From the NCBI GenBank assembly GCA_021840555.1, contig JAKBXW010000011.1:1-34298 (forward strand): a stretch of 34,298 nucleotides of DNA, in the 5' to 3' direction. A program made the translations under genes and the position numbers. Source of the stretch: Nitrospirota bacterium (lineage in GTDB: Bacteria; Nitrospirota; Leptospirillia; Leptospirillales; Leptospirillaceae). The notes below the pieces were generated by a model. It did no database searches. It saw only the letters and a list, made by a program, of their open reading frames with translations, and was not told where the DNA came from. Positions 2,684 to 34,163 of the stretch are shown here, piece by piece. The number at the start of each line of letters is the position of its first letter. Positions within the stretch are counted from its first letter, which is position 1.

Positions 2684-2697
2684 CTCTCCCAGGAGAG
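2684..2697. repeat. 6-2-6 inverted repeat upstream of purQ
   Basis: CTCTCC-CA-GGAGAG is a perfect 14-base dyad about 180 bases before purQ. It has no T-tract, so it is not an intrinsic terminator. It could be a regulator site, but nothing in the sequence identifies the regulator. Confidence 0.35.
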
Positions 2698-2714
2698 GGA
2701 AGTCCCCTTCAGAT

Positions 2715-2744
2715 TTGATCTGCGCGGGCATGATCTGTTATGGT
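2715..2744 (+). promoter_or_regulatory. Candidate promoter for the purQLF genes
   Basis: TTGATC (2715-2720) and TATGGT (2739-2744) are separated by 18 bases and match four of six consensus positions each. They lie about 135 bases before the purQ ATG. Weak, by-eye call. Confidence 0.35.
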
Positions 2745-2878
2745 TAAGGAATGCAATCCATGGTTTCATGTGAGATCTTTTTTCTCTTTCCGGAATTCTC
2801 CGCGGAAAACTGGAGCGGTTTTCACGCCCAGGCGCCCTTCCTTCCGCGGGGCCCTCAAATCCTAAAACAGGACCGTTG

Positions 2879-3586
2879 ATGCCGTCTCGCCATCGTGTTG
2901 GAATCGTCCGCTTTCCGGGAACGAACTGCGACCTCGACACCTGGGACGCCATCTCCCTGATCCCCGAACTCGAACCCGTATGGATTTCCCACAAGGACCG
3001 GCAGGGGGAGGACCTGGCCGCTCTCGTTCTCCCTGGAGGATTTTCATACGGAGACTATCTTCGAACGGGGATCATCGCCGCCAGGGCGCCTGTCATGGAG
3101 ATGGTGGGAAGCTTCGCCGACAGGGGCCGCCCTGTCCTTGGAATCTGCAACGGATTCCAGATCCTGGCCGAGGCCGGGATCCTTCCAGGGACACTCCTTC
3201 CAAACGGCGGGCGAACCTTTCTCTGCCAGGAAGAGTCCCTCGTCCTGGAGAACTGCCGGACTCCCTTCACGAACCTTTTCCTTCCCGGAACCCCGGTGAC
3301 CCTTCCCATCGCGCACCAGGAAGGGCGGTATTTCATTGATCCGGACCAGCTCCAGGAAATTGAAAAGAGAGGCCAGATCCTCCTGCGGTATCTGAAGAAT
3401 CCCAATGGCTCCGAGCGGGAGATCGCAGGGGTGACGAACCGCTCCGGAAATGTCGTCGGTCTGATGCCCCACCCCGAACGACGGGTCCGGACCCTTTTCG
3501 GACGACCGGACGGCCTCCTCTTCTTCCGCTCCCTGGCCCTTCACCTCGAACGCCAGAATTCCCGGGCAGTTCAACCGATCCCCTGA
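2879..3586 (+). CDS. purQ: Phosphoribosylformylglycinamidine synthase, glutaminase subunit PurQ
   Basis: PurQ hydrolyses glutamine and passes ammonia to PurL, which converts FGAR to FGAM in step four of purine synthesis. The 235-residue length is normal for the separate class I glutaminase subunit. It shows FPGTNCD at 12-18, the oxyanion loop GGFSYGD at 53-59, the nucleophile Cys90 in GICNGFQ, and the His198/Glu200 pair in HPE. The start is ATG 2879, with CAGGA about 8 bases upstream; the preceding TTG is less likely. It is first in a tight purQ-purL-purF set, 19 bases before purL. The third subunit of this enzyme type, PurS, is not encoded next to it and must lie elsewhere. Confidence 0.95.
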
Positions 3587-3605
3587 CCCTTATCGAAGAG
3601 AACCC

Positions 3606-5834
3606 ATGACCGCCGTCCCCCCCTCCCGATTCAGAATCCCGGCTCCCGAGATGGAGCGCATCCGGATCCTGCTTGGCCGTGACCCGAATCTGACAGAGGA
3701 GGCGGTTTTTTCGGCCCTCTGGAGCGAACACTGCAGCTACAAGTCAAGCCGGATCCATCTCCGGAAATTTTCCTCGAAAGGGCCCCGCGTTCTCATGGGG
3801 CCTGGAGAGAACGCCGGAGTCGTTCGCGTGACATCCCGGACTGGGATCGCCTTCAAGATGGAAAGCCACAACCATCCCAGCTACATTGAACCCTTCCAGG
3901 GCGCAGCCACGGGAGTCGGCGGGATCCTGCGGGACATTTTCGCAATGGGTGCGAGACCGGTCGCCCTGACCAACAGCCTGGTCTTCGGCTCGCTTCGCCA
4001 GCCACGACAGATGACGCTTTTTCGCCGTGTCGTCGCGGGCATCGCCGCTTACGGGAACGCCATCGGCGTTCCGACAGTCGGGGGAGAGGTCTGGTTTGAC
4101 GAACGGTATGCGAAGAACATCCTCGTGAACGCATTCGCGCTGGGTCTGGTCGACGAGGACGGCATCATGAGCGCCGTCCCGCCTCCCAAGCCCCTGCTCG
4201 CAGTCTATCTCGGGAACAAGACCGGAAGGGACGGGGTTTCCGGGGCAGCGATGGCGTCCCGGAGCTTTTCCGGCGGGGACACCGATCTTCGGCCGCAGGT
4301 CCAGGTCGCCGATCCTTTTGTCGGGAAGAAGGTCATGGAAGCCACACTCCTGATCATCCGCGAGGGGCTGGCGGGGGCCATCCAGGACATGGGGGCGGCC
4401 GGCCTCACCAGCTCCTCCGTCGAGATGGCCTCGAAGTCCTCCCTCGGCATCGAAATCGACGTGGACCGGGTTCCCCTCCGCGATTCCTCCATGGAACCCT
4501 GGGAGATCCTGCTCTCCGAATCCCAGGAGCGGATGCTTCTCCTGGTGGAGGAATCGCGCGTGGAGCGGATCCTCGACATCGCCCGCGACAGCCAGGTCTC
4601 TGCGGCGGTCGTGGGGCGGATCATTCCCGAGCCGGTCTTTCGGGTCCGGAAAGGGGAAGCGGTCTTTGCGGAAATTCCGGTTCCATTTTTGACGGAAGAG
4701 GCTCCCCTTTACGACCGGCCTACCCGGGAACGGGCTCCCTCCCCCTCCCGGCCGTCCCTGCTCCACACTCCCTCGGAAGCCGGTCGACACTCGATCGCCG
4801 AGCTGTTCCATCGTCTTCTCGACCATCCCAATGGGGGAGCCGCCGACTGGATTTCACGCCAGTTCGACTTTGAGGTGGGTACCCGGACCCTCCTGCCTCC
4901 GGGACACGACGTGGCGGTGGTGGATCTCCGGGAGGAGGAGCGGGCCGTGGCGATCTCCATGGCGGGATTTTCCCATCCCCTGACGCGGGATCCCGCCCGC
5001 GGCGCCATGCTTCTCGTGGCGAAGTGCGTCACCGATCTTGCCGCCGTCGGCGCCTGGCCCGTCGGCATGACCGACTGCCTCAACTTCGGGAATCCCGAAC
5101 GCCCCGAAACCATGTCGGACTTTGTTCAGGCGGTCGGCGGGATCGCCGATGCCGCCCGCCGTCTCGGAATCCCGGTCGTCTCAGGAAATGTCAGCTTCTA
5201 CAACGAAACCGACGGCCTCTCCATTCCTCCGACCCCCATCCTCGCCACCTGCGGACTGCTGTCGGACCGGCGAAGTGTCGTGCCCGGGAAAACCGCCCTG
5301 GCTGGACTCTCCCTGGCCCTGGTCGGGTCATCGAAGGACCTCTCCCTGGGCGGCTCCTATCTCGACTGGATTCTGGAGGATCCGGAGCCGGGTCCGGTCC
5401 CCCTGGTGGACTGGGAGACGCTCGGCCGCCTCCAGCCCTTCATGAGCGTACTTTTGTCCGGAGGAAGAGTCCGCGCCTCCCGCGCCATCGGACGCGGCGG
5501 ACTTCTCCGCACACTCCTTCAGCTCGTTTCGGCGGATCAGACGCTCGGGGCGGCGCTCTCCCTGTCCCGTCTCGAGAATCCGCTTCAGACATTTTTCTCG
5601 GAGGCGCCCGGAAGGATTCTGCTGGCCTTCGAACCGGACCATGCGCGCATCGTCGAACAGACGGCGCTCGAATTCGGGGTTCCCTGCCGGACGATCGGAT
5701 CGACGGCTCCCCTTCTCTGGAACATCCGCTACCAGGATCGGGAGGGACGCGCCAAGGAGCTCTCCGACTCCCCCGAACAACTCAAGAGACGTTACGCCGC
5801 GTCCCTCGCCGGCCAGATGGAGGATCTTCCCTGA
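3606..5834 (+). CDS. purL: Phosphoribosylformylglycinamidine synthase, synthetase subunit PurL
   Basis: This is the ATP-dependent synthetase subunit of the small (about 740 residue) type, which works with PurQ and PurS rather than as one large PurL chain. Motifs seen in order: SEHCSYKS (40-47), GPGENAG (65-71), KMESHNHP (84-91) and [10 protein letters not shown] (101-110), which together build the ATP and FGAR site. A second AIRS-like half follows, with a GNVSFYNE motif near residue 530. The 742-residue length fits the family. The stop TGA overlaps the purF ATG by one base (TGATG), which suggests translational coupling. Confidence 0.95.
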
Positions 5835-7303
5835 TGGAGTCCCATGAATCCCTCCGATCCGACGCCCCCTTCGACGATCTGAAGGAAAAATGCGCCGTCT
5901 TCGGGATCTTCAACCACCCGGAAGCCGGCAACCTCACCTATCTCGGTCTTTATGCCCTCCAGCACCGGGGCCAGGAAGGGTCCGGGATCGCCACCATGGA
6001 CGGGGAGCGCATGATCATCCGGAAGGGGGAAGGTCTCGTTTCTGAAATTTTCCATGAATCGGTGATCGGCGAACTCAAGGGACGTTCCGCGATCGGCCAC
6101 AACCGTTATTCGACGGCCGGCTCCGACTCCCAGAGAAATCTCCAGCCCCTCTCCGCCACCATCAGCGACGTCTCGATGGCCCTCGTGCACAACGGCAATC
6201 TGACCAACGCCCTCGACCTCCGAAAGACGCTGGAAGAGGAAGGGGCCCTCTTCACCACCGATGTCGACACCGAGGTCCTGGTCCACATGATCGCCCGGAG
6301 CCGGGGAGAAGACCTCGTTTCCCGCATGGAGACGGCGCTGGCCTCGGTCAAGGGCTCCTACTCCCTGCTCGCCCTCCTCCCCCACGCCCTGATCGGCATT
6401 CGCGATCCCCACGGGTTTCGTCCCCTCTCCATCGGAAAACTGGGAGAGTCCTATGTCCTGGCCTCGGAAACCTGCGCCTTCGACCTGATTGGCGCCAAGT
6501 ACATCCGGGATGTGGAGCCCGGGGAAATGGTGATCATCACAGAGACAGGGATGGAGCACTTCCGTCTCTTCCCGAGGATCCCGAGCGCGGCCTGCATCTT
6601 CGAGCTCATCTATTTCGCCCGTCCCGACAGCCGGGTCTTCGGAATTCCCGTCTATCAGGCGAGAAAGCGTCTGGGACGCCGTCTTGCGCTGGAGGCTCCC
6701 GCCGAGGCCGATATCGTCGTTCCTGTTCCCGACTCGGGGCTGGCCCCGGCTCTCGGATTTTCCGAACAGTCGGGGATCCCGATCGACATGGGGTTGATCA
6801 GAAACCACTACGTCGGTCGGACATTCATCGAACCCCAGCAGTCCATTCGCCATTTCGGGGTCAAGATCAAACTGAACGCCGTTCCAGAACTGCTGGCCGG
6901 GAAGCGGGTGGTGGTGATCGACGACTCCATCGTCCGGGGCACCACCAGCCGCAAAATCGTCTCCATGCTCCGGGAAGCGGGGGCTAGGGAGATCCACATG
7001 CGGATCACCTCCTCCCCCATCCACTTCCCCTGTTTTTACGGGATCGACACTCCCAACCGCGGGGAGCTGATCGCTTCCACCCATTCCCTGGACGAAATCC
7101 GCCGGTACATCAAGGCGGATACACTGGCCTATCTCCCCATCGGGGCGATGGAGGAGGAGGTCGTCTGCAGCCAGACCTTCCGGGAGGGGGAACCGCGGAC
7201 AGCAGGGTCCTTCTGCAAGGCCTGTTTCGACGGAAACTACCCCATCGCCTTTACCCAGGAAGAGCGCATTCAGCACGGGCTGTTCGACCGTCCGATCCGG
7301 TAG
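5834..7303 (+). CDS. purF: Amidophosphoribosyltransferase PurF, iron-sulfur type
   Basis: PurF makes phosphoribosylamine from PRPP and glutamine, the first committed step of purine synthesis. The chain of 489 residues begins with a 19-residue propeptide. Its removal would expose Cys20 as the N-terminal nucleophile of the glutaminase domain (CAVFGIF, then LQHRGQEG at 42-49 and GHNRYSTAG at 88-96). The PRPP loop VVVIDDSIVRGTT lies at 359-371. Cys254, Cys400 and the CKAC pair (461 and 464) sit where the Bacillus-type enzyme binds a 4Fe-4S cluster. This is therefore the oxygen-sensitive iron-sulfur form rather than the E. coli form. The start overlaps the purL stop. Confidence 0.95.
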   Translation: MESHESLRSDAPFDDLKEKCAVFGIFNHPEAGNLTYLGLYALQHRGQEGSGIATMDGERMIIRKGEGLVSEIFHESVIGELKGRSAIGHNRYSTAGSDSQRNLQPLSATISDVSMALVHNGNLTNALDLRKTLEEEGALFTTDVDTEVLVHMIARSRGEDLVSRMETALASVKGSYSLLALLPHALIGIRDPHGFRPLSIGKLGESYVLASETCAFDLIGAKYIRDVEPGEMVIITETGMEHFRLFPRIPSAACIFELIYFARPDSRVFGIPVYQARKRLGRRLALEAPAEADIVVPVPDSGLAPALGFSEQSGIPIDMGLIRNHYVGRTFIEPQQSIRHFGVKIKLNAVPELLAGKRVVVIDDSIVRGTTSRKIVSMLREAGAREIHMRITSSPIHFPCFYGIDTPNRGELIASTHSLDEIRRYIKADTLAYLPIGAMEEEVVCSQTFREGEPRTAGSFCKACFDGNYPIAFTQEERIQHGLFDRPIR

Positions 7304-7341
7304 TCTTCGGCCGGGAGAACGGCTTAAAGGAAGAAGGTCGC

Positions 7342-7998
7342 GTGAAGATTCTTCCCTCCGGAACCGGAAGAAATCCCGTTTCCCCTCCCCTTCGAAACGC
7401 CTGGAGCATGGTGGAGGAGACCCTGTCCCAGGTTCGTGGAGTCGTTTTTCCCCGGATCGAGTGGTTCCGGGTCTGGTTCAGGGTCAGACGGATGGCAGGG
7501 AGAAAGGCGGACCTTCTCGCGCGCCTGGGGAAGTTGGCCGCGGAGAACGGCCTCCAGGACTATTGGCCCTTTACAGGCCTTCACCACCCCGAAATGACCG
7601 CCCTGATCGACCGGATACGGGAAACAGAACGGCTCGAAACGCACCTTCGAGAGTGGATGGAATACCTCGAGGACCGGGAAACTTCGGGCCTCCTCGCCCA
7701 TCTTCAGGAGGACCTCGCACGCAGGATCGTCTTCCCCCAGACGGTTCTGGTGACGGAAGACTCTCCCTATCTCGGGCTTTCCATGAACGACATCCGGAAA
7801 ACGGCCGCCTCGGAAGGCTCCGTTCCCCTCATGGCCCTGCGCGGAAATTTCGCCGTGGAGCTGGGGCCCCGCCTCCCCCTGATGGCGGGCGACCGGCTCA
7901 TTTTGCTCTCCGCCTGGAAAAGGCTCCGGGAGGTGCCTCCCTCAGCCGGCCTTCTCCAGATCGACGGATCCCCCGACTCGGAAATCCCCTTTCCCTGA
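7342..7998 (+). CDS. Unknown protein with TrkA-C (RCK_C)-like C-terminus
   Basis: I do not recognise a named family for this 218-residue protein. Residues 1-125 are rich in charged and helical sequence (for example RETERLETHLREWMEYLED), with no membrane segment or nucleotide-binding Rossmann motif. Residues about 130-205 resemble the TrkA-C/RCK_C fold of potassium-channel regulators: a hydrophobic strand, a short helix with SMNDIRK, the strand SVPLMALRG, and the ending LMAGDRLILL. In such proteins this domain binds small ligands such as c-di-AMP. The start is GTG 7342, with GAAGG about 6 bases upstream. It follows purF by 38 bases and probably shares its transcript. It ends only 27 bases from the convergent miaB stop. 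Confidence 0.7.
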   Translation: MKILPSGTGRNPVSPPLRNAWSMVEETLSQVRGVVFPRIEWFRVWFRVRRMAGRKADLLARLGKLAAENGLQDYWPFTGLHHPEMTALIDRIRETERLETHLREWMEYLEDRETSGLLAHLQEDLARRIVFPQTVLVTEDSPYLGLSMNDIRKTAASEGSVPLMALRGNFAVELGPRLPLMAGDRLILLSAWKRLREVPPSAGLLQIDGSPDSEIPFP

Positions 7999-8025
7999 GC
8001 AACTTTCCCCCAGCTCCCCTGCTTC

Positions 8026-9366
8026 TCAGAGAATCTCTCCCTCGAGTCCCGCCTTTGTGCAGGACCGGATCGCGACCGGGACAATCTCCCCCGGTTCCGG
8101 AAGCGGACGGGAACCCTTCCCGAATCCCCTGACGTGACGGAACTGGGGAGAGCGGCCCGAGACACGCCCGAGGGAGTGGTCGACCCGCTCCACGAGAATC
8201 TCCTGGACTTCTCCGATCTGGCGTTGATTCTTCCCGACGATCAACGAGTCCAGCCGCTCCTCGAGCCGCCGGAACCGGGAGACCGAAATTTCACGCGGAG
8301 GGGTGTCGGCCCAGCGGTGAGCCGGGGTTCCCGGGCGGGGAGAGTAGATGAAGCAGAAGGCGCCGTCGAACTGGAATTCGTCCACAGCCCGGAGTGTCGC
8401 CTCGAAGTCCTCCTCCGTCTCCCCGCAGAATCCGACGATGAGGTCGGTCGTCAGCGCGACCTGGGGAACGGCCTCCCGGAGACGCTCGATCCAACCCCTG
8501 TAGTGGTCGAGGGAATATCCCCGGTCCATGCGGGAGAGAAGGGCGTCGGAACCGGACTGGAGCGGGAGATGGAGGTGGGGCATGACCTTCGGACATTCCC
8601 GCATCGCGGAGAGCATCCCGGAGTCCATGTCCGAGGGATGGGATGTGGTGAATCGGATCCTCCGGAGACCCTCCACGGCGTCCACCGCCCGGAGAAGGTC
8701 GCCGAAAGAGGCTCCCCCGGCTGCATTCTTCCCGTATCCGTTGACGTTCTGTCCCAAAAGGGTGACCTCCCGATACCCTGCCGCGACCAGTTCCCGGACT
8801 TCGTCCGCGATGGCGGCCACAGGCCGGCTCCGCTCGGGGCCGCGGGTCCGGGGAACGACGCAGTAGGCACAGGCCTTGTCGCACCCTTCCTGCACCGTCA
8901 CGAGGGCCGTGACACCGGGCCCCCGTTGGGCGGGAGGCGTCGTCATCTCCGGAAGGCCGTACTCCCTTCCCAGGAGGACCTTTTGCCGGTTTTTCACGTC
9001 TGTCAGCATGGGGACCAGGTTCCGGACCTGGGAGGGGCCGGCGATCAGGTCGATCTCCGGCATGATGCGGTGGAGGTTCTCCTGCTCCCGTTCGGCCATG
9101 CACCCGGTGACGGCGAGAACCACCGATCCGTTTTCCTTCTTGTGCTGCCGGAGTCTTCCCAGATCGGACAGGGCCTTCTGGTCGGCCTTGTCTCTCACGG
9201 TGCAGGTATTGACCAGGATCACGGAGGCCAGGGAGGGATCGTCGACGGAGCGGTAGCCGGCTTCGGCCATGAGGCCGGCCATGCGTTCCGAGTCGTGGAC
9301 ATTCATCTGGCACCCGAATGTGCGGATATAGTAGGTTTCGGAGAGCGGTCGGGATTCGTCGGGCAT
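8026..9366 (-). CDS. miaB: tRNA-2-methylthio-N6-dimethylallyladenosine synthase MiaB
   Basis: MiaB is a radical-SAM methylthiotransferase that modifies A37 of tRNAs reading UNN codons. The 446-residue chain has the N-terminal UPF0004 domain with the auxiliary cluster ligands Cys19 (TFGCQMN), Cys55 (NTCTV) and Cys89 (TGCM). The radical-SAM triad CDKACAYC is at 162-169, and a TRAM RNA-binding domain occupies about the last 70 residues. TFGCQMN and the overall length favour MiaB over MtaB or RimO. The start is ATG 9366; its ribosome site is weak. It lies 40 bases downstream of the DUF5069 gene on the same strand. It converges with the purine cluster with no visible terminator in the 27-base gap. 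Confidence 0.93.
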   Translation of the reverse strand: MPDESRPLSETYYIRTFGCQMNVHDSERMAGLMAEAGYRSVDDPSLASVILVNTCTVRDKADQKALSDLGRLRQHKKENGSVVLAVTGCMAEREQENLHRIMPEIDLIAGPSQVRNLVPMLTDVKNRQKVLLGREYGLPEMTTPPAQRGPGVTALVTVQEGCDKACAYCVVPRTRGPERSRPVAAIADEVRELVAAGYREVTLLGQNVNGYGKNAAGGASFGDLLRAVDAVEGLRRIRFTTSHPSDMDSGMLSAMRECPKVMPHLHLPLQSGSDALLSRMDRGYSLDHYRGWIERLREAVPQVALTTDLIVGFCGETEEDFEATLRAVDEFQFDGAFCFIYSPRPGTPAHRWADTPPREISVSRFRRLEERLDSLIVGKNQRQIGEVQEILVERVDHSLGRVSGRSPQFRHVRGFGKGSRPLPEPGEIVPVAIRSCTKAGLEGEIL

Positions 9367-26311: not shown

Positions 26312-26914
26312 CTACCGGCCGTCCGGGCCGTCCTGCAACCGCTCGAGCCCCCCGCGGCATTTTCCGCAGACGAGATATCCCGGATCCCTGAGCAGGCGTT
26401 CGTGGCGGATCACACCCAGACGGAACTCCCGAAGACAGTCCGTGCAGCGGTATCCGAAGACCTTTCCCGTCCGGGCGCGGGAAACCGGATAGTCGTGGCA
26501 TCGGTCGGGAGGATGCCCGAAAAGTTTCATCAGAGAACGCCAAAAGGTCCCGTGCGGACTGTAGTCCGCCCGATCCCCCCTTTTTCCGCCATTATATTTC
26601 AGCTGGAAGACGACGGCATGGGCATATTCGTGGGCGATCGTGGGCAGAAAGACTTCTTCCCCCACCCGTTCGATGATCTCTCCGTTGAAGCGGAGCGACA
26701 TCTCCTGGCGGCGGTCGCCCGGGTGGAGTCGGACGGAGAAGAGACCGGCCCGGAGCCCCCGGAGGTCGAAGCGGAGGGAGCCGGCCCGACCGTCGGAAAA
26801 GGTCAGGTCGAGGCCGGATCTTTCCCGGATGATGCCTTCGACCCTCAAAATCTCTTCCTGGAGGAGCGGATAGGGAACGGGAGCTCCCCGGGACTGGGGG
26901 AGGCGGCCGTTCAT
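26312..26914 (-). CDS. SprT-like zinc metalloprotein
   Basis: A 200-residue protein with the SprT fold: zinc-site HEYAH at 95-99 and a third ligand His121 in SPHGTFWRSLM. A C-terminal zinc ribbon has Cys157/Cys160 and Cys183/Cys186 (YRCTDC and VCGKC). The eukaryotic relative SPRTN cleaves DNA-protein crosslinks. Bacterial SprT proteins carry the same motif, but their substrates are poorly known. The ATG overlaps the stop of the preceding unknown gene (ATGA), so the two are probably made together. Residues 1-15 before the helical start look disordered. Confidence 0.85.
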   Translation of the reverse strand: MNGRLPQSRGAPVPYPLLQEEILRVEGIIRERSGLDLTFSDGRAGSLRFDLRGLRAGLFSVRLHPGDRRQEMSLRFNGEIIERVGEEVFLPTIAHEYAHAVVFQLKYNGGKRGDRADYSPHGTFWRSLMKLFGHPPDRCHDYPVSRARTGKVFGYRCTDCLREFRLGVIRHERLLRDPGYLVCGKCRGGLERLQDGPDGR

Positions 26915-28233
26915 GAAGTAGTCGCCTTCCGGTCTGCAGGGGAAATCCCCCTGGCCGCCAGGAACTCCCGAAGGGATCCCGCTCCTTCGAGATTGCTTTC
27001 CGCCATCCCCTCGATCCGGAGAAGGCGGGGGAAGACGCTGGCCTTCGCCCTCTCCGGAGGGCAACCCCGAAGATACAGGTAGATTCTTCCAGGCTTTTTG
27101 GGGTCCTGAAAAAGAAGGTCTGCGGGCCGGAGCTTTTCCTCGATCCTTTTCAGATATCCCCCCGACGGCAGAAGGATCGTCGCGAGGGCGTCCTCCATCG
27201 TGGAGGGAGGACCCAGGGAGGGCAGCTCCTTCAATAGGTCCGGATCGAAACATTCGTCTTCGGGAAGCCAGAAGGAGAGAAAGGAGATCTGTCCCGGGTA
27301 GAGGAGGTGCCTGTAGAGGGAGCGGAGGGAAAGCGCCCGCGCGTGGCGGAGCTTCGAGAGAAAGTGCGGGATGTCGAAGTTTCGGACGATTCCCGCAGGG
27401 AATCGGACTGTTCCCAGATTGAAGATCCCCCAGAGGTCGACCGGAACCTCCAGGCAGGCCCCGGCCTCCCCGGCTCCCGTCCTGGCCCCGGCCGATCCGG
27501 GGGCCTCCTTCCGTTTCTCCAGTTTCAGAACCCTCCGGGTCCATCCTTCCCCGGGGACTTTCCAGTAATCCCCATCGAGGATCTCGTCCTCGACCTCCCC
27601 GCCCAGGGCCGGAAGCGGCACCGCCCGGCGCCATTCGGGAGCCTGGGAGCGTCCGAGGGGGACAAACGGCTCCGGGATATTCCCGAGAATCCGGCCCCAG
27701 AAGACTTCGAGGGTCGAATCGAGCATCCATCGGTCAAGAACCGGCCTGAGGAGCGCCTCGATCTTTCCGACCTTTTGTGCAAAGCCTGCGAGCGCCTGGG
27801 AGGAAGAACCGTCCGATTCGCCCCTCAGGAAGACGGCCCTCCCCCATTCGAAACGGACCCCCCAGAGAAAGAGGCCGGAGGATTGGGAGATACGGTCGGG
27901 CAGGAGCCGCCAGGCTCCACTGAAGGAGGGGATATCCTCCGAGACCCGCTCCCTGAATTCGGAACGGGACGCGGGAATCAGCGCGCGTTCGAGGAGATCG
28001 ACCAGAGCCTCCCATCCGGCGCCCGGAAGGATCTTCGGAAAGAGCGCCTGGGAGGCGGCGTTCTGAAGGAGGAGACCCAGTTCACGGTGGAAGACGAAAA
28101 AGCCTTTCTGGACTCCTTCCGTCCGCTCCGGGGAATCCCCGGAAAGAAAGAGCTTCTCCAGGAGCTGGCGCACGAGGGGGGAGAGCATCGATTCGAAGAT
28201 CGCATCGTCCGGTCTGGTCTCGATCCACTCCAT
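26911..28233 (-). CDS. Unknown 440-residue protein coupled to SprT-like gene
   Basis: I do not recognise this protein. It has no signal peptide, membrane segment or obvious nucleotide-binding motif. It is rich in Leu, Arg, Trp and Phe, and has features of a helical N-terminal half (VRQLLEKLFLSGDSPERTEG, FHRELGLLLQNAASQALF). The middle contains a proline- and glycine-rich stretch at about 245-260. The end (LFQDPKKPGRIYLYLRGCPPER) looks beta-rich. The start is ATG 28233, with GAGGGG about 6 bases upstream. It sits 51 bases after the giant cyclase gene and overlaps the SprT-like start, so it may work with either. Codon use and frame integrity support a real gene. Confidence 0.75.
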   Translation of the reverse strand: MEWIETRPDDAIFESMLSPLVRQLLEKLFLSGDSPERTEGVQKGFFVFHRELGLLLQNAASQALFPKILPGAGWEALVDLLERALIPASRSEFRERVSEDIPSFSGAWRLLPDRISQSSGLFLWGVRFEWGRAVFLRGESDGSSSQALAGFAQKVGKIEALLRPVLDRWMLDSTLEVFWGRILGNIPEPFVPLGRSQAPEWRRAVPLPALGGEVEDEILDGDYWKVPGEGWTRRVLKLEKRKEAPGSAGARTGAGEAGACLEVPVDLWGIFNLGTVRFPAGIVRNFDIPHFLSKLRHARALSLRSLYRHLLYPGQISFLSFWLPEDECFDPDLLKELPSLGPPSTMEDALATILLPSGGYLKRIEEKLRPADLLFQDPKKPGRIYLYLRGCPPERAKASVFPRLLRIEGMAESNLEGAGSLREFLAARGISPADRKATTS

Positions 28234-28284: not shown

Positions 28285-31200
28285 TCAGTCTTTGTCCCAA
28301 AGCTTCCACCAGGAGCTCCGATGGCCCTTGAGACGCTTGATCTCGTAGAGGGCCAGGTCGGCCTGCCTGAGCAGGAGGTCCGGGTCGCCATTTTTGTCCG
28401 GGAAAAGGATGACCCCCATGGAGATCCCCACCGGGATCCGGACTCCCGGTTCTTCGGGAAGATCGTAGGGACGTTCGAGGGACCGGGAGAGGCGATCCAT
28501 GAGAACCGGAAGATGGTCCCGGTCCGGAATCTCTGCCGCCACCACGAATTCGTCTCCTCCCAGACGCCCCACGAGATCGCTCTCCCGAAGGGTTTTCCGG
28601 AGCCTTCCGGAGATTTCGACCAGGAGACGGTCCCCCGCGGCGTGGCCATAGGTGTCGTTGACCGGCTTGAAGTCGTCGAGGTCGAGGATCCCCACGACCC
28701 CCAGTGTTTTCCGGCGTTCTATCGAGGCGAGAAAGGATCGCATGGCGTGCCCCATCCCTCTCCGGTTCAGAAGTCCCGTCAGGGGATCGTGGATCGACAG
28801 ATCCTCGAGTTTCGCCAGGAGACGGATCCGGTCGATGGCGAAGGCGGCCCGCAGGGCGAGGTCTTCGATCAGATCGAGGATCACCCTGTCGGAAAAGGGC
28901 GCGGGATCCCGGGCACCCATCACCAGAACGGCGAGGATCTCCCCCTCCGGCCGCCGGATCGGCCAGCCGGCGACGAACCCCGTCTCCGAGAAGGGCGCGC
29001 TCCGAAAGGCGCCGGGCATGGTCGGATCCCCGGAGGGATGAACCACGGAGACGGGTTTCCCGGAGAGATGGACCCGGGTCGGAAGGGGCTCCTTCCCGTC
29101 CGGCGGGGGAAGAAGGGGGGGAGGCGGGAGGGCGAGGACCGCCCGGGAGAGTTCCCCCAGGACGATCTTCCTTTCGAAGCGGTCCTTTCCGGGCACGAGA
29201 AGTTCGACAAAAAGAATCCCCTGCTCGGAGGAAATCGCATCGGCGAGGGTTCGATAGACCTCCTCCTCCGTTTTGACCAGAAAAAGCTCGGAGAGGATCC
29301 GCTGACCCACGACCTGGGCGTGGGCCCGGCGCCTCTCTCGGCGGATGCGTTCCTTCCGGTCGAGATAGGCCGCCACTTCGACGACGATCCTCTGGAAGAG
29401 GGCCGCCGAATCCTGACCCAGGATGGTGTCGTCCTCGAACTGGGCATGGAGAAGAACCCTTTCTCCCCCGAGCCTGCTCCCGGAGACGGAGAGAGTTCCA
29501 TATTTTCTGGAATCCGTGCCGACCTTCTCTCCAGGGTAGTCCGGCTCTTCCTTCAGAAGAATCTGGGGGAGCCCGGTGCGGAGCGCCATGGCGACCATCC
29601 CCGAGCCTCCGGAAGAGATCAGGGACTCCGCAAGAGAGTCGGCCGAGATGCCTTCTCCCAGGAGGGCGGGAGAGAGTGAAACCAGGGGATGCGATATCCG
29701 CGGGTCCCCCCCGGCCTGGCGTCCGAGAAGGACGAATCGCGCATTCAGGGTCTCACGGAGTTTTTCCAGAAGCTCCCTTTGAACCTCCTCCTCCGGAGCC
29801 TCGTCCTTCTCCCGAAGGATCTGGACCGACTCGGAGAGGGCCCGGTAGAACAGGGAGGCGATCCGGGCCCGTTCCTCAGACTCCTTGAGGGCGGTCACGT
29901 CGGTTTCGACCGAGACGTACCCCGCGGGGTGGCCGTCCGGTGAAAAGAGGGCGGTCGCGTTCACCCGAAGCCAGAAGGGCTCTCCGGACCGCGAATAGTG
30001 GACCATCGTCTCCTGAAAGGAGCGGTGCTCGGCGACGATAGCCCGGATCCGGCCAAGGGTTGCGGGATCGGTCCCGGGCCCCAGCCGGAAGTCCGCCGGA
30101 AAGCGGCCCCGGATTTCCTCCAGGCGGTAGCCGAACTTTTCCTCGAAGGCCCGGTTGACCCAGAGGATCCGGCCGGCGGGATCGGTCAGGAGAATGCCGT
30201 CCGTCGTCTTCTGGGCGACGAGGGAAAGCCGTTCGAGTTCCCCCTCCCGATCGAGGCGTTCGAGCGCAATGGACAGACTCTGCGCCAGTTGCTCCCCCAG
30301 ACGGAGATGGTCCTGGGAAAAAGCCCCTTCCCGGTCGCCCCAGAGGGCGATGACCGCCTCCGGCTCGGGCTTTCCCGGAAGGATGACCGGAACCGCCATG
30401 ATTTCCCGGACGGCCGAAAGCTCCGGATGAGTGGATTGGTAGAAGCGAAGGGCCTCCAGCCCTCCGCCCATGGACTCGATCCTTCCTTTTCGGGCAAGCC
30501 AGGCCTTCGCGGCGACGGTCAGCTTCTCCCATTCTCCCGCCAGAGGGAAGCTGAGCGCCTTCACTATCTCGGCCAGCCTCTCGTCCCGGGAGGCGTGGGC
30601 CGACATGGCCAGTGCGTCCGTCCCGGGATTCCGTTCCAGAACATAGGCGGCCAGCGCGTCCGTCACCCGCGCGATCGTCCGGACAAGGGTCCGGAAGAGA
30701 TCGGAACGGCTCCGGGCGGAGAGAAACTCCTGCTGGGAGGCCCGGACCGCCTCCTGGAACACCGTCACCCTCCGAACCTGTTCCTCCAGACGCTTGCGGT
30801 CGAGGGCCTGAATGATCTCCAGGGAGATCCGCTGGAAGGGGGCGACCCATTGGTCCTCGAGAAAGCGGGGCGAGGAGAACCAGGCCGCAAGAATGACGCG
30901 GTCCCCCTCCTTCCCGAGGGCAGAGGCGACCAGGGAGCCCATGATCCCCAAGCTCTTCGCCCGGGTATGCAGGATCTCCGGAAGCCTCTCTTCGGAGATT
31001 CGAACCGCCCTCCCCCCTTCCCGCTCCATCAGTTCGGAGGCGGGACAGCGTCCGAAGAGAGAGGCGGGATCCCGGAGGTTCTCCATCCCCGAAAACCACT
31101 CCCCCGCCCTGCCTCGCGTCAGAAGGGTCTCCGGAGAGGCGCGGTCCTCGGGAATCCGGGCAAGAAGAAGGACCTCCGGACGGAGCACGGCGTAGACCCG

Positions 31201-33234
31201 GTCGGCCACCTCTCCCACAAAATGGTCCAGGGAGGGGAAATCCTCCCGGAGGGCCTGCATCGTAACGGAAAGGGCCTCCTGGAAGAGCGCCGCGGTCTCC
31301 TTCTGGAGGGAGGCTTCCCGGATTCTGGTAAGGTCGGAGGCGACGAGACCGTAGCCCCGCAAGGCGCCTCCCGGCTCCCTGAGGGGAAAGCCCCTCAAAA
31401 GCCGCCATTCGGCGGGGGTGTCGGAAGAAGGCAGGGAGAGGGTCTCCTCGAAGGGACGGGTGGACCGGATGGCTGAGCGGATCCGGGCCCGGACCCCCTC
31501 CGGGACCCCCTCCCCGGCCAGAAGATCGACGGGATCGGTTCCGGGAAGCTCCTCGGCCGGTCGACGGGATTGCCGGGCAAAGGCGGCGTTGGCCCAATCG
31601 ATCCGGCCGTCGTCTCCGAGAACGCAGATCGCGTCCTCAGTCCCGCGAGTCACCAGGGAGAGGCGGCTGATCCTCTCCTCCTGGTCTAGCCTCCGGACAG
31701 CCCGGCCCAGGCTTTCCGCCAGCGTGGATAGGAGCTCCCGCAGGCTCTCGGTGAAATGGTCCGTCTCCTCGCTCCAGACCACGAAGACCGCCTCCGGGTC
31801 CCGATCTGCCACGGACAGGACGGGAAAGGCCATCGCGGACCTGATCCGGACAAGAGCGGGAAAGCGCCGCTGCATTTCCTGGAGAAAGGGCCACTCTTCG
31901 GATGTGACAGGACCCTGGGGACGGCGCTCACGAAAGGCCAGGGAGAAGAGGGAGGGGCCGAAGGATTCCTCCTCCTCCCTCGTGAAACGAATCCCTCGGG
32001 CCGCCTCCGTCATCCCGGGATCGACCGTCTCCACCGCCTCTGTTTTCAGAGAGCCTTCGGAGTCCCGGACAGCGACATAGCTTCCGAGGGCCCCGGCGTA
32101 CCGGACGATCGCCTGGACGAGGGTCCGGTACATCTGGGTCCGGGTCGTGGCGGAGATAAAGGACTGCTGGAGGCGTCGGATCGCCTCCTGGTAGGAGGCC
32201 AGATTCTGCCGCTCCCGCTCGATCCGTCTCCGGTCGAAATAGGCGGCGATGTCCCCCGCCAGCCCCGCGACCATGGAGCGGAATTCTCCCGGAAAGGCTC
32301 CCTTCCTCTCGCGGTAGAGCACGATCGCAACCTGGCTTCCGTCGGCCATGGCCGCCGAGTCGGCGAGACCGCTTCCGAGTCCGAGCGCTCCTCCCCGGTC
32401 CCCCCAGACGGTCAGTCCCCCATCCGCATCAAGATCCTCGACGACCGCCATATGGCCCCTGGCCAGGGCCTGACCCACGAGCGTCCTTGAAAGCTCTTCC
32501 GTGGTGGGTTCCAGGAAGAGCTTTTCCCCCGTGACAACCGATCTGGAGCCGGCACTGGCCAGGATTTCGAGGCGACTTTCACCGGCCTTCCGGCGGCCGA
32601 TCCAGACGAGCGGGAGACCGAAGGATCCCGATATAAGGTTGGCGACCTCCGACAGGACGGTCTCCGGAGTTCCCGGCTCCGTCTGCCTGAGAAGGCGTTC
32701 GACCTCGAGGAGCGTCGAAAGAGGGGAACTCTCCTCCCGGCACCGGCGGAGAAGCGCTCCGAGCCGGGAGACAAGCTCGGGAGGCAGGATGGTTTCCGGA
32801 ACCGGGAGAGGACGGGATCCCGGGAAGATCAACAGGAGAAGGGTCTCCCCTTCTCTACTGTCTGGCCTGTCGGGATCGGAAAGACCCGGGAAGGGGAGAA
32901 CGAGGCGTCGCCCGTCGGGGCCGCTGTCACCGAGAATGGCGGAGAGGCTCTCCGGGACCGCGGCGGGATCCTTTCCAATGGGAGCGGACAGAAGGAGCGA
33001 AAACAGGGGGTCTGGGGCGGAGACGGCTCGGAGGATCGAATCCCTCTCGAAGAGGAGAAGGAGCGCCCCTTCGGCCTCCAGGGACTCCCGGAGCGCGGAA
33101 AGGAGCTCTTCGGTCGCCGGGCGGACGGGATGGTGCAAGGCCAGGTTTCCGACAAGAGACAGAAGAGTCCTTTCTCCCCATCCGGGCCGATCCCCCTGCT
33201 CACCGGATCCTTCCACCGGCCCTCCCATCTCCAC
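28285..33234 (-). CDS. Giant GAF/PAS sensor diguanylate cyclase
   Basis: A 1649-residue soluble protein ending in a GGDEF domain that would make c-di-GMP. The active loop GGDEF is intact at 1559-1563, the inhibitory RxxD site is at 1550-1553, and the DLDDFKPVND segment is upstream. Before it lies a repeated sensory cassette. An N-terminal degenerate GAF-like part (about 25-165) is followed by three GAF-GAF units whose junction motif (YQEAIRRLQQ, FQEAVRASQQ, then a diverged AHAQVVGQR) recurs near residues 345, 823 and 1300. PAS domains follow the first two units (about 525-640 and 1000-1115); the GGDEF follows the third. No membrane segment is seen. The start is GTG 33234; ATG 33228 is possible, and neither has a strong ribosome site. 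Confidence 0.9.
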   Translation of the reverse strand: MEMGGPVEGSGEQGDRPGWGERTLLSLVGNLALHHPVRPATEELLSALRESLEAEGALLLLFERDSILRAVSAPDPLFSLLLSAPIGKDPAAVPESLSAILGDSGPDGRRLVLPFPGLSDPDRPDSREGETLLLLIFPGSRPLPVPETILPPELVSRLGALLRRCREESSPLSTLLEVERLLRQTEPGTPETVLSEVANLISGSFGLPLVWIGRRKAGESRLEILASAGSRSVVTGEKLFLEPTTEELSRTLVGQALARGHMAVVEDLDADGGLTVWGDRGGALGLGSGLADSAAMADGSQVAIVLYRERKGAFPGEFRSMVAGLAGDIAAYFDRRRIERERQNLASYQEAIRRLQQSFISATTRTQMYRTLVQAIVRYAGALGSYVAVRDSEGSLKTEAVETVDPGMTEAARGIRFTREEEESFGPSLFSLAFRERRPQGPVTSEEWPFLQEMQRRFPALVRIRSAMAFPVLSVADRDPEAVFVVWSEETDHFTESLRELLSTLAESLGRAVRRLDQEERISRLSLVTRGTEDAICVLGDDGRIDWANAAFARQSRRPAEELPGTDPVDLLAGEGVPEGVRARIRSAIRSTRPFEETLSLPSSDTPAEWRLLRGFPLREPGGALRGYGLVASDLTRIREASLQKETAALFQEALSVTMQALREDFPSLDHFVGEVADRVYAVLRPEVLLLARIPEDRASPETLLTRGRAGEWFSGMENLRDPASLFGRCPASELMEREGGRAVRISEERLPEILHTRAKSLGIMGSLVASALGKEGDRVILAAWFSSPRFLEDQWVAPFQRISLEIIQALDRKRLEEQVRRVTVFQEAVRASQQEFLSARSRSDLFRTLVRTIARVTDALAAYVLERNPGTDALAMSAHASRDERLAEIVKALSFPLAGEWEKLTVAAKAWLARKGRIESMGGGLEALRFYQSTHPELSAVREIMAVPVILPGKPEPEAVIALWGDREGAFSQDHLRLGEQLAQSLSIALERLDREGELERLSLVAQKTTDGILLTDPAGRILWVNRAFEEKFGYRLEEIRGRFPADFRLGPGTDPATLGRIRAIVAEHRSFQETMVHYSRSGEPFWLRVNATALFSPDGHPAGYVSVETDVTALKESEERARIASLFYRALSESVQILREKDEAPEEEVQRELLEKLRETLNARFVLLGRQAGGDPRISHPLVSLSPALLGEGISADSLAESLISSGGSGMVAMALRTGLPQILLKEEPDYPGEKVGTDSRKYGTLSVSGSRLGGERVLLHAQFEDDTILGQDSAALFQRIVVEVAAYLDRKERIRRERRRAHAQVVGQRILSELFLVKTEEEVYRTLADAISSEQGILFVELLVPGKDRFERKIVLGELSRAVLALPPPPLLPPPDGKEPLPTRVHLSGKPVSVVHPSGDPTMPGAFRSAPFSETGFVAGWPIRRPEGEILAVLVMGARDPAPFSDRVILDLIEDLALRAAFAIDRIRLLAKLEDLSIHDPLTGLLNRRGMGHAMRSFLASIERRKTLGVVGILDLDDFKPVNDTYGHAAGDRLLVEISGRLRKTLRESDLVGRLGGDEFVVAAEIPDRDHLPVLMDRLSRSLERPYDLPEEPGVRIPVGISMGVILFPDKNGDPDLLLRQADLALYEIKRLKGHRSSWWKLWDKD

Positions 33235-33488: not shown

Positions 33489-34163
33489 CTACGACCGGGA
33501 GTCGGAAAGGAGCTCCTGCACACGGTCATGGACACGGGAGACGAGCCTCAGGCTTTCGGCCTTTTTTTCGGCCGGATCGGAGGAAGGGGCCCCGGGCCAT
33601 TCGGGAGGGCCGAAGGTAACGGTCAGCCGGGCGGGACGGGGAACGGCGGCACCCGGCGGAAGGCACCGGTCCGTCCCCGCAATCGCCGCCGGAACGATGG
33701 GAACGTTGGCCCCCATGGCCAGAAGGGCCACCCCCCGGTGAAAGGGGCGCAGTTCTCCGTCCCGGGAGCGGGTCCCTTCGGGAAAGATTCCCAGGACCCC
33801 GCCCTGGCGGAGAACCTCCTCGGAAAAGGAAAGGGCCTTCCGGTCTCCCTCGCCCCGGGCGATGGGAAATCCTCCGAGGGAGAGGAGAAATCGGGCAAGC
33901 AAGGGGTTCGCGAAGAGTTCAGGCTTGGCGGGAAAGCGCGACTCCCGGGGAATGGCGTATCCCAGAAGGGGAACATCGAGCAAGGAGAGGTGGTTCGCGG
34001 CCACGATCACCCCTCCGGAGGAAGGAAGATGTTCCTGTCCTGTAATGGTCACGGGGAGGAGGCTCCGGAAGACCCCTCCGGCCAGAATGCGGAAGGATCG
34101 GTAAAAAAAGGTGGGCCAGATCGTCCCTGGAGGCGGGATTATCGGTAGCGCGCGACGATCCAT
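33489..34163 (-). CDS. plsC: 1-acylglycerol-3-phosphate acyltransferase PlsC
   Basis: PlsC acylates lysophosphatidic acid to phosphatidic acid at the inner membrane. The 224 residues show the NHxxxxD motif (His58 and Asp63 in NHLSLLD), FPIARGEG (about 99-106) and FPEGTRS (127-133). A further block, [10 protein letters not shown], follows. The N-terminal helix (about 14-38) is the membrane-associated part. The ATG lies inside the end of cmk, a 25-base overlap in another frame; cmk-plsC is a common pair in bacteria. The ribosome site is weak, which fits coupled translation. Confidence 0.9.

Follow-up and report, generated by a model that had tools for sequence, protein, structure and literature searches.

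The usual description of a bacterial sensor protein is that of a mosaic whose domains have been assembled piecewise. One gene of the window analysed here, by which we mean the whole stretch of 34,298 nucleotides, raises the question of whether a very long sensory protein may have grown by the copying of a multi-domain unit and, if so, which domains made up that unit and what output they serve. The gene encodes a protein of 1649 amino acids, hereafter T, whose reading frame contains no internal stops. The start codon is GTG; its exact position may be off by a few codons, the most similar orthologue beginning at about residue 7. A preliminary description, made from the sequence alone, had read T as a cassette of about 478 residues present three times, in the plan (GAF-GAF-PAS)(GAF-GAF-PAS)(GAF-GAF-GGDEF), and had attributed this plan to internal duplication of a whole sensory module.

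T is found in five genomes of a single genus and nowhere else among the 296 sampled genomes of the phylum, two further genomes of which carry more distant relatives of its last two GAF domains (A3-B3). The orthologues are 59–71% identical to T; they are complete in G003 (71%) and G013 (59%), truncated by the contig in G005 (63%) and present as fragments in G007. In the latter genome the orthologue lies in two frames of a short contig (L014:8-2665 and 2688-3842), owing to a frameshift or an assembly error. Pairwise dN/dS between orthologues is about 0.28, which indicates purifying selection on T; within the protein, the output-proximal PAS2 and GGDEF domains are the most conserved and the N-terminal domain is the fastest-evolving. 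T has no transmembrane-like segment (maximum 19-residue Kyte-Doolittle value 1.35) and is most likely cytosolic.

Repeated Cassettes in the Sensory Region

The domain order of T is N, A1-B1-PAS1, A2-B2-PAS2, A3-B3-GGDEF, where A and B are two classes of GAF domain (Table 1). T carries the A-B-PAS cassette twice, together with a partial third copy. When all ungapped offsets of T against itself were scored with BLOSUM62, 20 whole-protein shuffles serving as the control (maxima 37–55), the regular off-diagonal predicted at about 478 residues was found: at offset 478, residues 280–664 match residues 758–1142 over 385 residues with a score of 397, against a shuffled maximum of 55. Two further diagonals, at offset 480 (766–855, score 96) and at offset 958 (328–383, score 73), also exceed the best shuffled score, and the junction motif said to recur between the paired GAF domains is seen at about residues 345, 823 and 1301. 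Similarity between the units, a test set beforehand, is significant for every pair, with BLASTP E-values of 7e-46 for units 1 and 2 (29% identity over 363 aa), 8e-9 for units 1 and 3 and 2e-11 for units 2 and 3.

The matching is of like with like. Shuffle Z-scores are 30 for B1-B2, 27 for PAS1-PAS2, 15 for A2-A3, 6 for A1-A3 and 2 for A1-A2. When profiles of the orthologues are compared with hhalign, like domains match like across the cassettes (B1-B2, probability 99%); profiles built from orthologues and paralogues connect A1 with A3 (98.7%, E 2e-16), A2 with A3 (99.4%, E 6e-22) and A1 with A2 (94%), and paralogue-enriched profiles connect B1/B2 with B3 (98.5%, E 2e-15) and PAS1 with PAS2 (98.8%). 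Between GAF class A and class B the hhalign probability is at most 33%, and in the GAF tree the A domains and the B domains form two groups. By the paralogue-enriched profiles the third unit is homologous at both of its GAF positions, although its single-sequence signal is weak. The order of domains in the proposed plan, including that of the third unit, is thus borne out by profile comparison and tree, but the plan had overlooked the N-terminal domain of residues 1–173. The class of this domain was sought with Pfam, profiles and the structural model without an assignment; a clear B-type GAF is recognisable only at the N terminus of the paralogue described below. The N domain of T is possibly a degenerate B-type GAF and, as a conjecture, may be the remnant of an earlier unit, since the paralogue has a B-type GAF there.

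The linkers, read from the printed sequences, measure about 45 residues from A to B in all three units, about 32 residues from PAS to A in both instances, and about 23 residues both from B to PAS and from B to GGDEF. In agreement with the earlier suggestion that the output domain stands in the place of a third PAS, the GGDEF domain therefore attaches at a linker of the same length (23) as the one that leads to a PAS domain. The duplication of a whole module is likewise supported, but the best-preserved copy is B-PAS-A and not GAF-GAF-PAS. A duplicated block in the register B-PAS-A fits better because B1-PAS1-A2 and B2-PAS2-A3 are 32–33% identical in each domain (B1-B2 32%, PAS1-PAS2 33%, A2-A3 33%), against 20% for A1-A2 and 23% for B2-B3. 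On these identities, the duplication event probably ran from GAFb through PAS to GAFa.

Table 1. Features of the three-cassette protein T and of its neighbours (positions refer to the window).
Feature	Residues	Positions	Strand	Basis
T, multi-sensor diguanylate cyclase (predicted)	1–1649	28285..33234	-	ORF and orthologues
N, N-terminal domain	1–173	32716..33234	-	No Pfam match; low-confidence model; fastest-evolving
A1, GAF class A	174–344	32203..32715	-	GAF_2 E 1.7e-4; class by profile comparison and tree
B1, GAF class B	345–519	31678..32202	-	GAF_2 E 1e-10; B1-B2 hhalign 99%
S1 (PAS1)	520–643	31306..31677	-	PAS_4 E 2.6e-14
A2, GAF-like, class A	644–822	30769..31305	-	A2-A3 hhalign 99.4%; GAF-like element order in model; no Pfam match for A2 alone
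B2, GAF class B	823–998	30241..30768	-	GAF_2 E 3e-10, GAF_3 E 1e-7
S2 (PAS2), LOV-like PAS without photoactive Cys	999–1121	29872..30240	-	PAS_9 E 4e-17; aligns with flavin-binding PAS domains of LOV type in the PDB
A3, GAF-like, class A	1122–1300	29335..29871	-	GAF_2 E 0.016; class by profile and tree
B3, GAF class B	1301–1462	28849..29334	-	GAF_2 E 0.0016; B1/B2-B3 hhalign 98.5%
GGDEF output domain	1463–1649	28288..28848	-	PF00990 E 2.4e-35; TIGR00254 E 4e-34
I-site RxxD (RESD)	1550–1553	28576..28587	-	Sequence; conserved in orthologues
GGDEF signature	1559–1563	28546..28560	-	Sequence
Conserved 440-aa orphan, 51 bp downstream of T		26911..28233	-	Homologues adjoin T in G003, G005, G013
Acyltransferase gene flanking T		33489..34163

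A Two-Cassette Paralogue and the Direction of Change

All five T-bearing genomes also carry a two-cassette paralogue (L009, which is G000:C148; L109; L110; L111; and L115, partial), which is partial in G005. It resembles T in its order, A1-B1-PAS-A3-B3-GGDEF, which matches T position by position with a cassette spacing of about 476–478 residues, and it is 39–42% identical to T over the C-terminal part; unlike T, it is without the block S1-A2-B2, which in T sits between B1 and S2. Two histories could lead to such a pair. In the one that we somewhat prefer, on parsimony, an in-frame tandem duplication of the B-PAS-A block inside a two-cassette protein resembling the paralogue would have given rise to T. 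In the other, which is possible but rather doubtful, the three-cassette state would be the older one, the paralogue would have lost its middle S1-A2-B2 block, and T would have undergone no recent duplication.

The trees speak for both. The B1 and B2 domains of T are each other's closest relatives, with the B1 of the paralogue outside the pair (support 90–96), which favours duplication in the lineage of T and counts against the loss. In the tree of the A domains, A2 branches outside the group formed by the A3 of T and the A3 of the paralogue (support 90), as an older three-cassette state would predict; moreover, the domains of the paralogue match A1, B1, S2, A3 and B3 specifically, and none of them is nearer to S1, A2 or B2. 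However, A2 and S1 of T sit on long, deep branches in the domain trees, so that their deep placement is suspect. The individual domain trees disagree on the timing of the duplication. None of the three orders, and hence neither of the two histories, is rejected when the concatenated blocks are submitted to AU tests (p 0.54, 0.26 and 0.57).

A loss in the paralogue would also have parallels, because deletion occurs elsewhere in the system. T is flanked by an acyltransferase gene and by the gene of a 440-aa orphan protein, followed by a SprT-like gene. In G009, which is without T, the acyltransferase and the orphan adjoin across a gap of 246 bp (L172:7890-8135), and this gap holds a 22-codon remnant of the 3' end of T, LAL*EIQRLEGHRNVRWKLWEK, with a stop codon inside, which matches the last residues of T, LALYEIKRLKGHRSSWWKLWDK (tblastn E 6e-6 against 700 bp). 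The presence of a 3'-end remnant between the same neighbours indicates that T was once present in G009 and was then deleted. In the trees of both neighbours G009 falls, weakly, with G000 and G003 inside the T-bearing group (support 77 for the acyltransferase and 57 for the orphan). G002, too, has the acyltransferase next to the orphan and no T between them.

The second parallel is provided by short GAF-GGDEF proteins of 435–465 aa in G002, G004, G006 and G011. Their B3-GGDEF part clusters with the corresponding part of T (support 79) and, as at the locus of T, a homologue of the 440-aa neighbour comes next, in this case a second copy of the orphan; unlike T, they have a single GAF domain, begin with about 100 unrelated residues and lie at a different locus. 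The paralogue, L038 and G015 likewise have A3 linked to B3, and on this ground the short form is most readily interpreted as a reduced relative.

Two further observations concern the paralogue. It carries a C-terminal protoglobin domain in G000 (L009:2-4600) and G003 (L109:1849-6537), which is absent in the 1237–1239-aa forms of G007 and G013. The gene adjacent to it is split in G000 into two overlapping frames (L009:5493-6536 and 6398-8692), by a frameshift or an assembly error, and is intact in G007 and G005, where it encodes a GAF-GGDEF-EAL protein of 1063 aa.

The Output Domain and the Neighbouring Orphan

The GGDEF family profile PF00990 scores 122.1 bits on T, against a curated cut-off of 23.8, and the signature RLGGDEF is present. 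The claim that both the GGDEF motif and the I-site are intact holds for T and for the three orthologues whose sequence extends to the C terminus, all of which show RESD/RDSD-LxGRLGGDEF; in T, the I-site stands five residues before the GGDEF motif (RESD-LVGRL-GGDEF). The residues of the substrate site (DLDDFKPVND) are canonical and conserved. T probably makes c-di-GMP, as judged from these motifs. In leptospirilli, the production of exopolysaccharide and the formation of biofilms are proposed to be under c-di-GMP control (PMC5772234), and this proposed role gives the inputs of T practical relevance to biomining and acid mine drainage.

The 440-aa orphan is a probable operon partner of T. Homologues of this protein (E ≤ 0.001) occur in 11 of the 21 genomes of the family and are repeatedly adjacent to GAF-GGDEF genes. 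No Pfam or NCBIfam family matches the orphan, and a degenerate GGDEF or PAS domain, suspected by eye, was rejected by hhalign probabilities of about 1% or less. The association of the orphan with GGDEF proteins admits a different function for T, which would no longer make c-di-GMP but would act as a receptor of c-di-GMP or GTP, or as a regulator of its neighbour by contact. The orphan is indeed kept beside T in three other species, its homologues stand beside the short relatives in four, and the I-site could serve for binding; yet the canonical, conserved signature and substrate site of T are unlike the degenerate GGDEF domains of receptors, and we consider this function improbable.

Fold, Known Relatives and Proposed Mechanism

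AlphaFold models of segments of T, of moderate confidence (mean pLDDT 60–69, pTM 0.41), consist of GAF- and PAS-like elements joined by long helices. The nearest solved folds found with Foldseek are PAS-GAF-PHY(-PAS), PAS-GAF-PHY-GGDEF and tandem-GAF phosphodiesterase architectures, including XccBphP, the Idiomarina phytochrome diguanylate cyclase, DosP and tandem-GAF phosphodiesterases. PadC (PAS-GAF-PHY-GGDEF; PDB 5llw and 6et7), which is among the top matches, shares with T the order PAS-GAF-GAF-like-GGDEF (S2-A3-B3-GGDEF) and a helical spine, and XccBphP (PAS-GAF-PHY-PAS) is comparable to N-GAF-GAF-PAS of T on such a spine; T differs from both in having several cassettes instead of one. 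The tandem-GAF proteins (GAF-A/GAF-B of PDE5 and PDE6) resemble T in possessing two GAF domains with a long helix between them, and a pattern search for their NKFDE cyclic-nucleotide motif (NKXnFX3DE) was negative in T and in three orthologues.

Two photoreceptor identities were considered and rejected. A phytochrome, suggested by the fold search, is contradicted by the absence of PHY and PAS_2 from the families listed up to E 10, and by the lack of a DIP motif and of a conserved Cys in the GAF domains; the whole of T has only three Cys residues (165, 537 and 730). In the LOV-like PAS2, GRFPADFRLGP replaces GRNxRFLQGP, the photoactive Cys of the GxNCRFLQ motif is missing, and the flavin-contacting Asn residues are gone, replaced by H at the aligned NY position and by L at FWN.

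Helices recur as connectors between signalling domains (PMC1592074), and in phytochrome- and LOV-linked GGDEF proteins the length of the linker and the register of the coiled coil control activity (PMC9587094, PMC12805367). It is likely, in our assessment, that T acts in the cytosol as a diguanylate cyclase and that its sensory half, made of A-B-PAS cassettes of about 478 residues and extended by a B-PAS-A duplication, works as a stacked integrator of signals on a helical spine. We infer the dimer, signal flow, activity and inputs of T as follows: T would form a parallel dimer along a helical spine of fixed-length linkers; ligand or redox inputs at several GAF and PAS pockets would shift the register of the helices; this shift would allow the two GGDEF domains to meet and c-di-GMP to be made; and the product would feed back through the RxxD I-site.

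Cassette Number in the GGDEF Proteins of the Family

The preliminary description knew of no protein with the plan of T. This fits our searches, in which the plan was met in only five of the 296 genomes, and T's plan was not found described in the literature on the duplication of multi-domain sensory cassettes; but the principle is common in the family. Among other GGDEF proteins, surveyed as small samples of selected long ones, internal offsets of about 290–306 residues occur in two others of G000, five of G002 and four of G015, several of them with second harmonics near 590–600, and repeated GAF and PAS domains were recognised by Pfam in those that were checked. These long GAF/PAS GGDEF(-EAL) proteins of the same family (L137, 1719 aa; L010, 1897 aa; L145; L157; L158) are like T in that internal multi-domain repeats feed a GGDEF domain, and differ in the length of the repeat, which is consistent with one GAF plus one PAS and contrasts with the 478 residues of T. 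Cassette-repeated GGDEF proteins are therefore common in the family, and the principle is not unique to T.

In bacteria, GAF and PAS domains are freely recombined, and the pairwise sequence similarity of B3 to B1 and B2 is weak, but that such domains were added singly, their regular spacing being due to chance, is very hard to reconcile with an ungapped diagonal of 385 residues that spans several domains at one offset, with strictly like-with-like matching and with the equal spacing of the paralogue. We tentatively suggest that GGDEF proteins of this acidophile lineage might lengthen and shorten their sensory part by duplicating and deleting whole cassettes, linker length being strictly kept, and that each added cassette might be an exchangeable, phase-preserving stage of one long helical transmission. 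If this were true, proteins with three, two and one unit would allow the addition of signals along the spine to be tested in a natural series. In T, the two-unit paralogue, the G009 remnant and the one-GAF forms, the number of sensory stages varies while the output domain and the linker lengths are constant; this natural series of cassette numbers, with its deletion remnant, is the main interest of the locus, and lends itself to the study of signal integration along a helical spine and of the gain or loss of sensor inputs.

Outside the family, no repeat of about 295 residues was seen in three long GGDEF proteins taken from two genomes that belong to another family of the phylum; one of the three has tandem repeats of 128 residues. 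These repeats, of a different kind, are highly similar to one another (L167:1541-4156, G034; ungapped score 1206).
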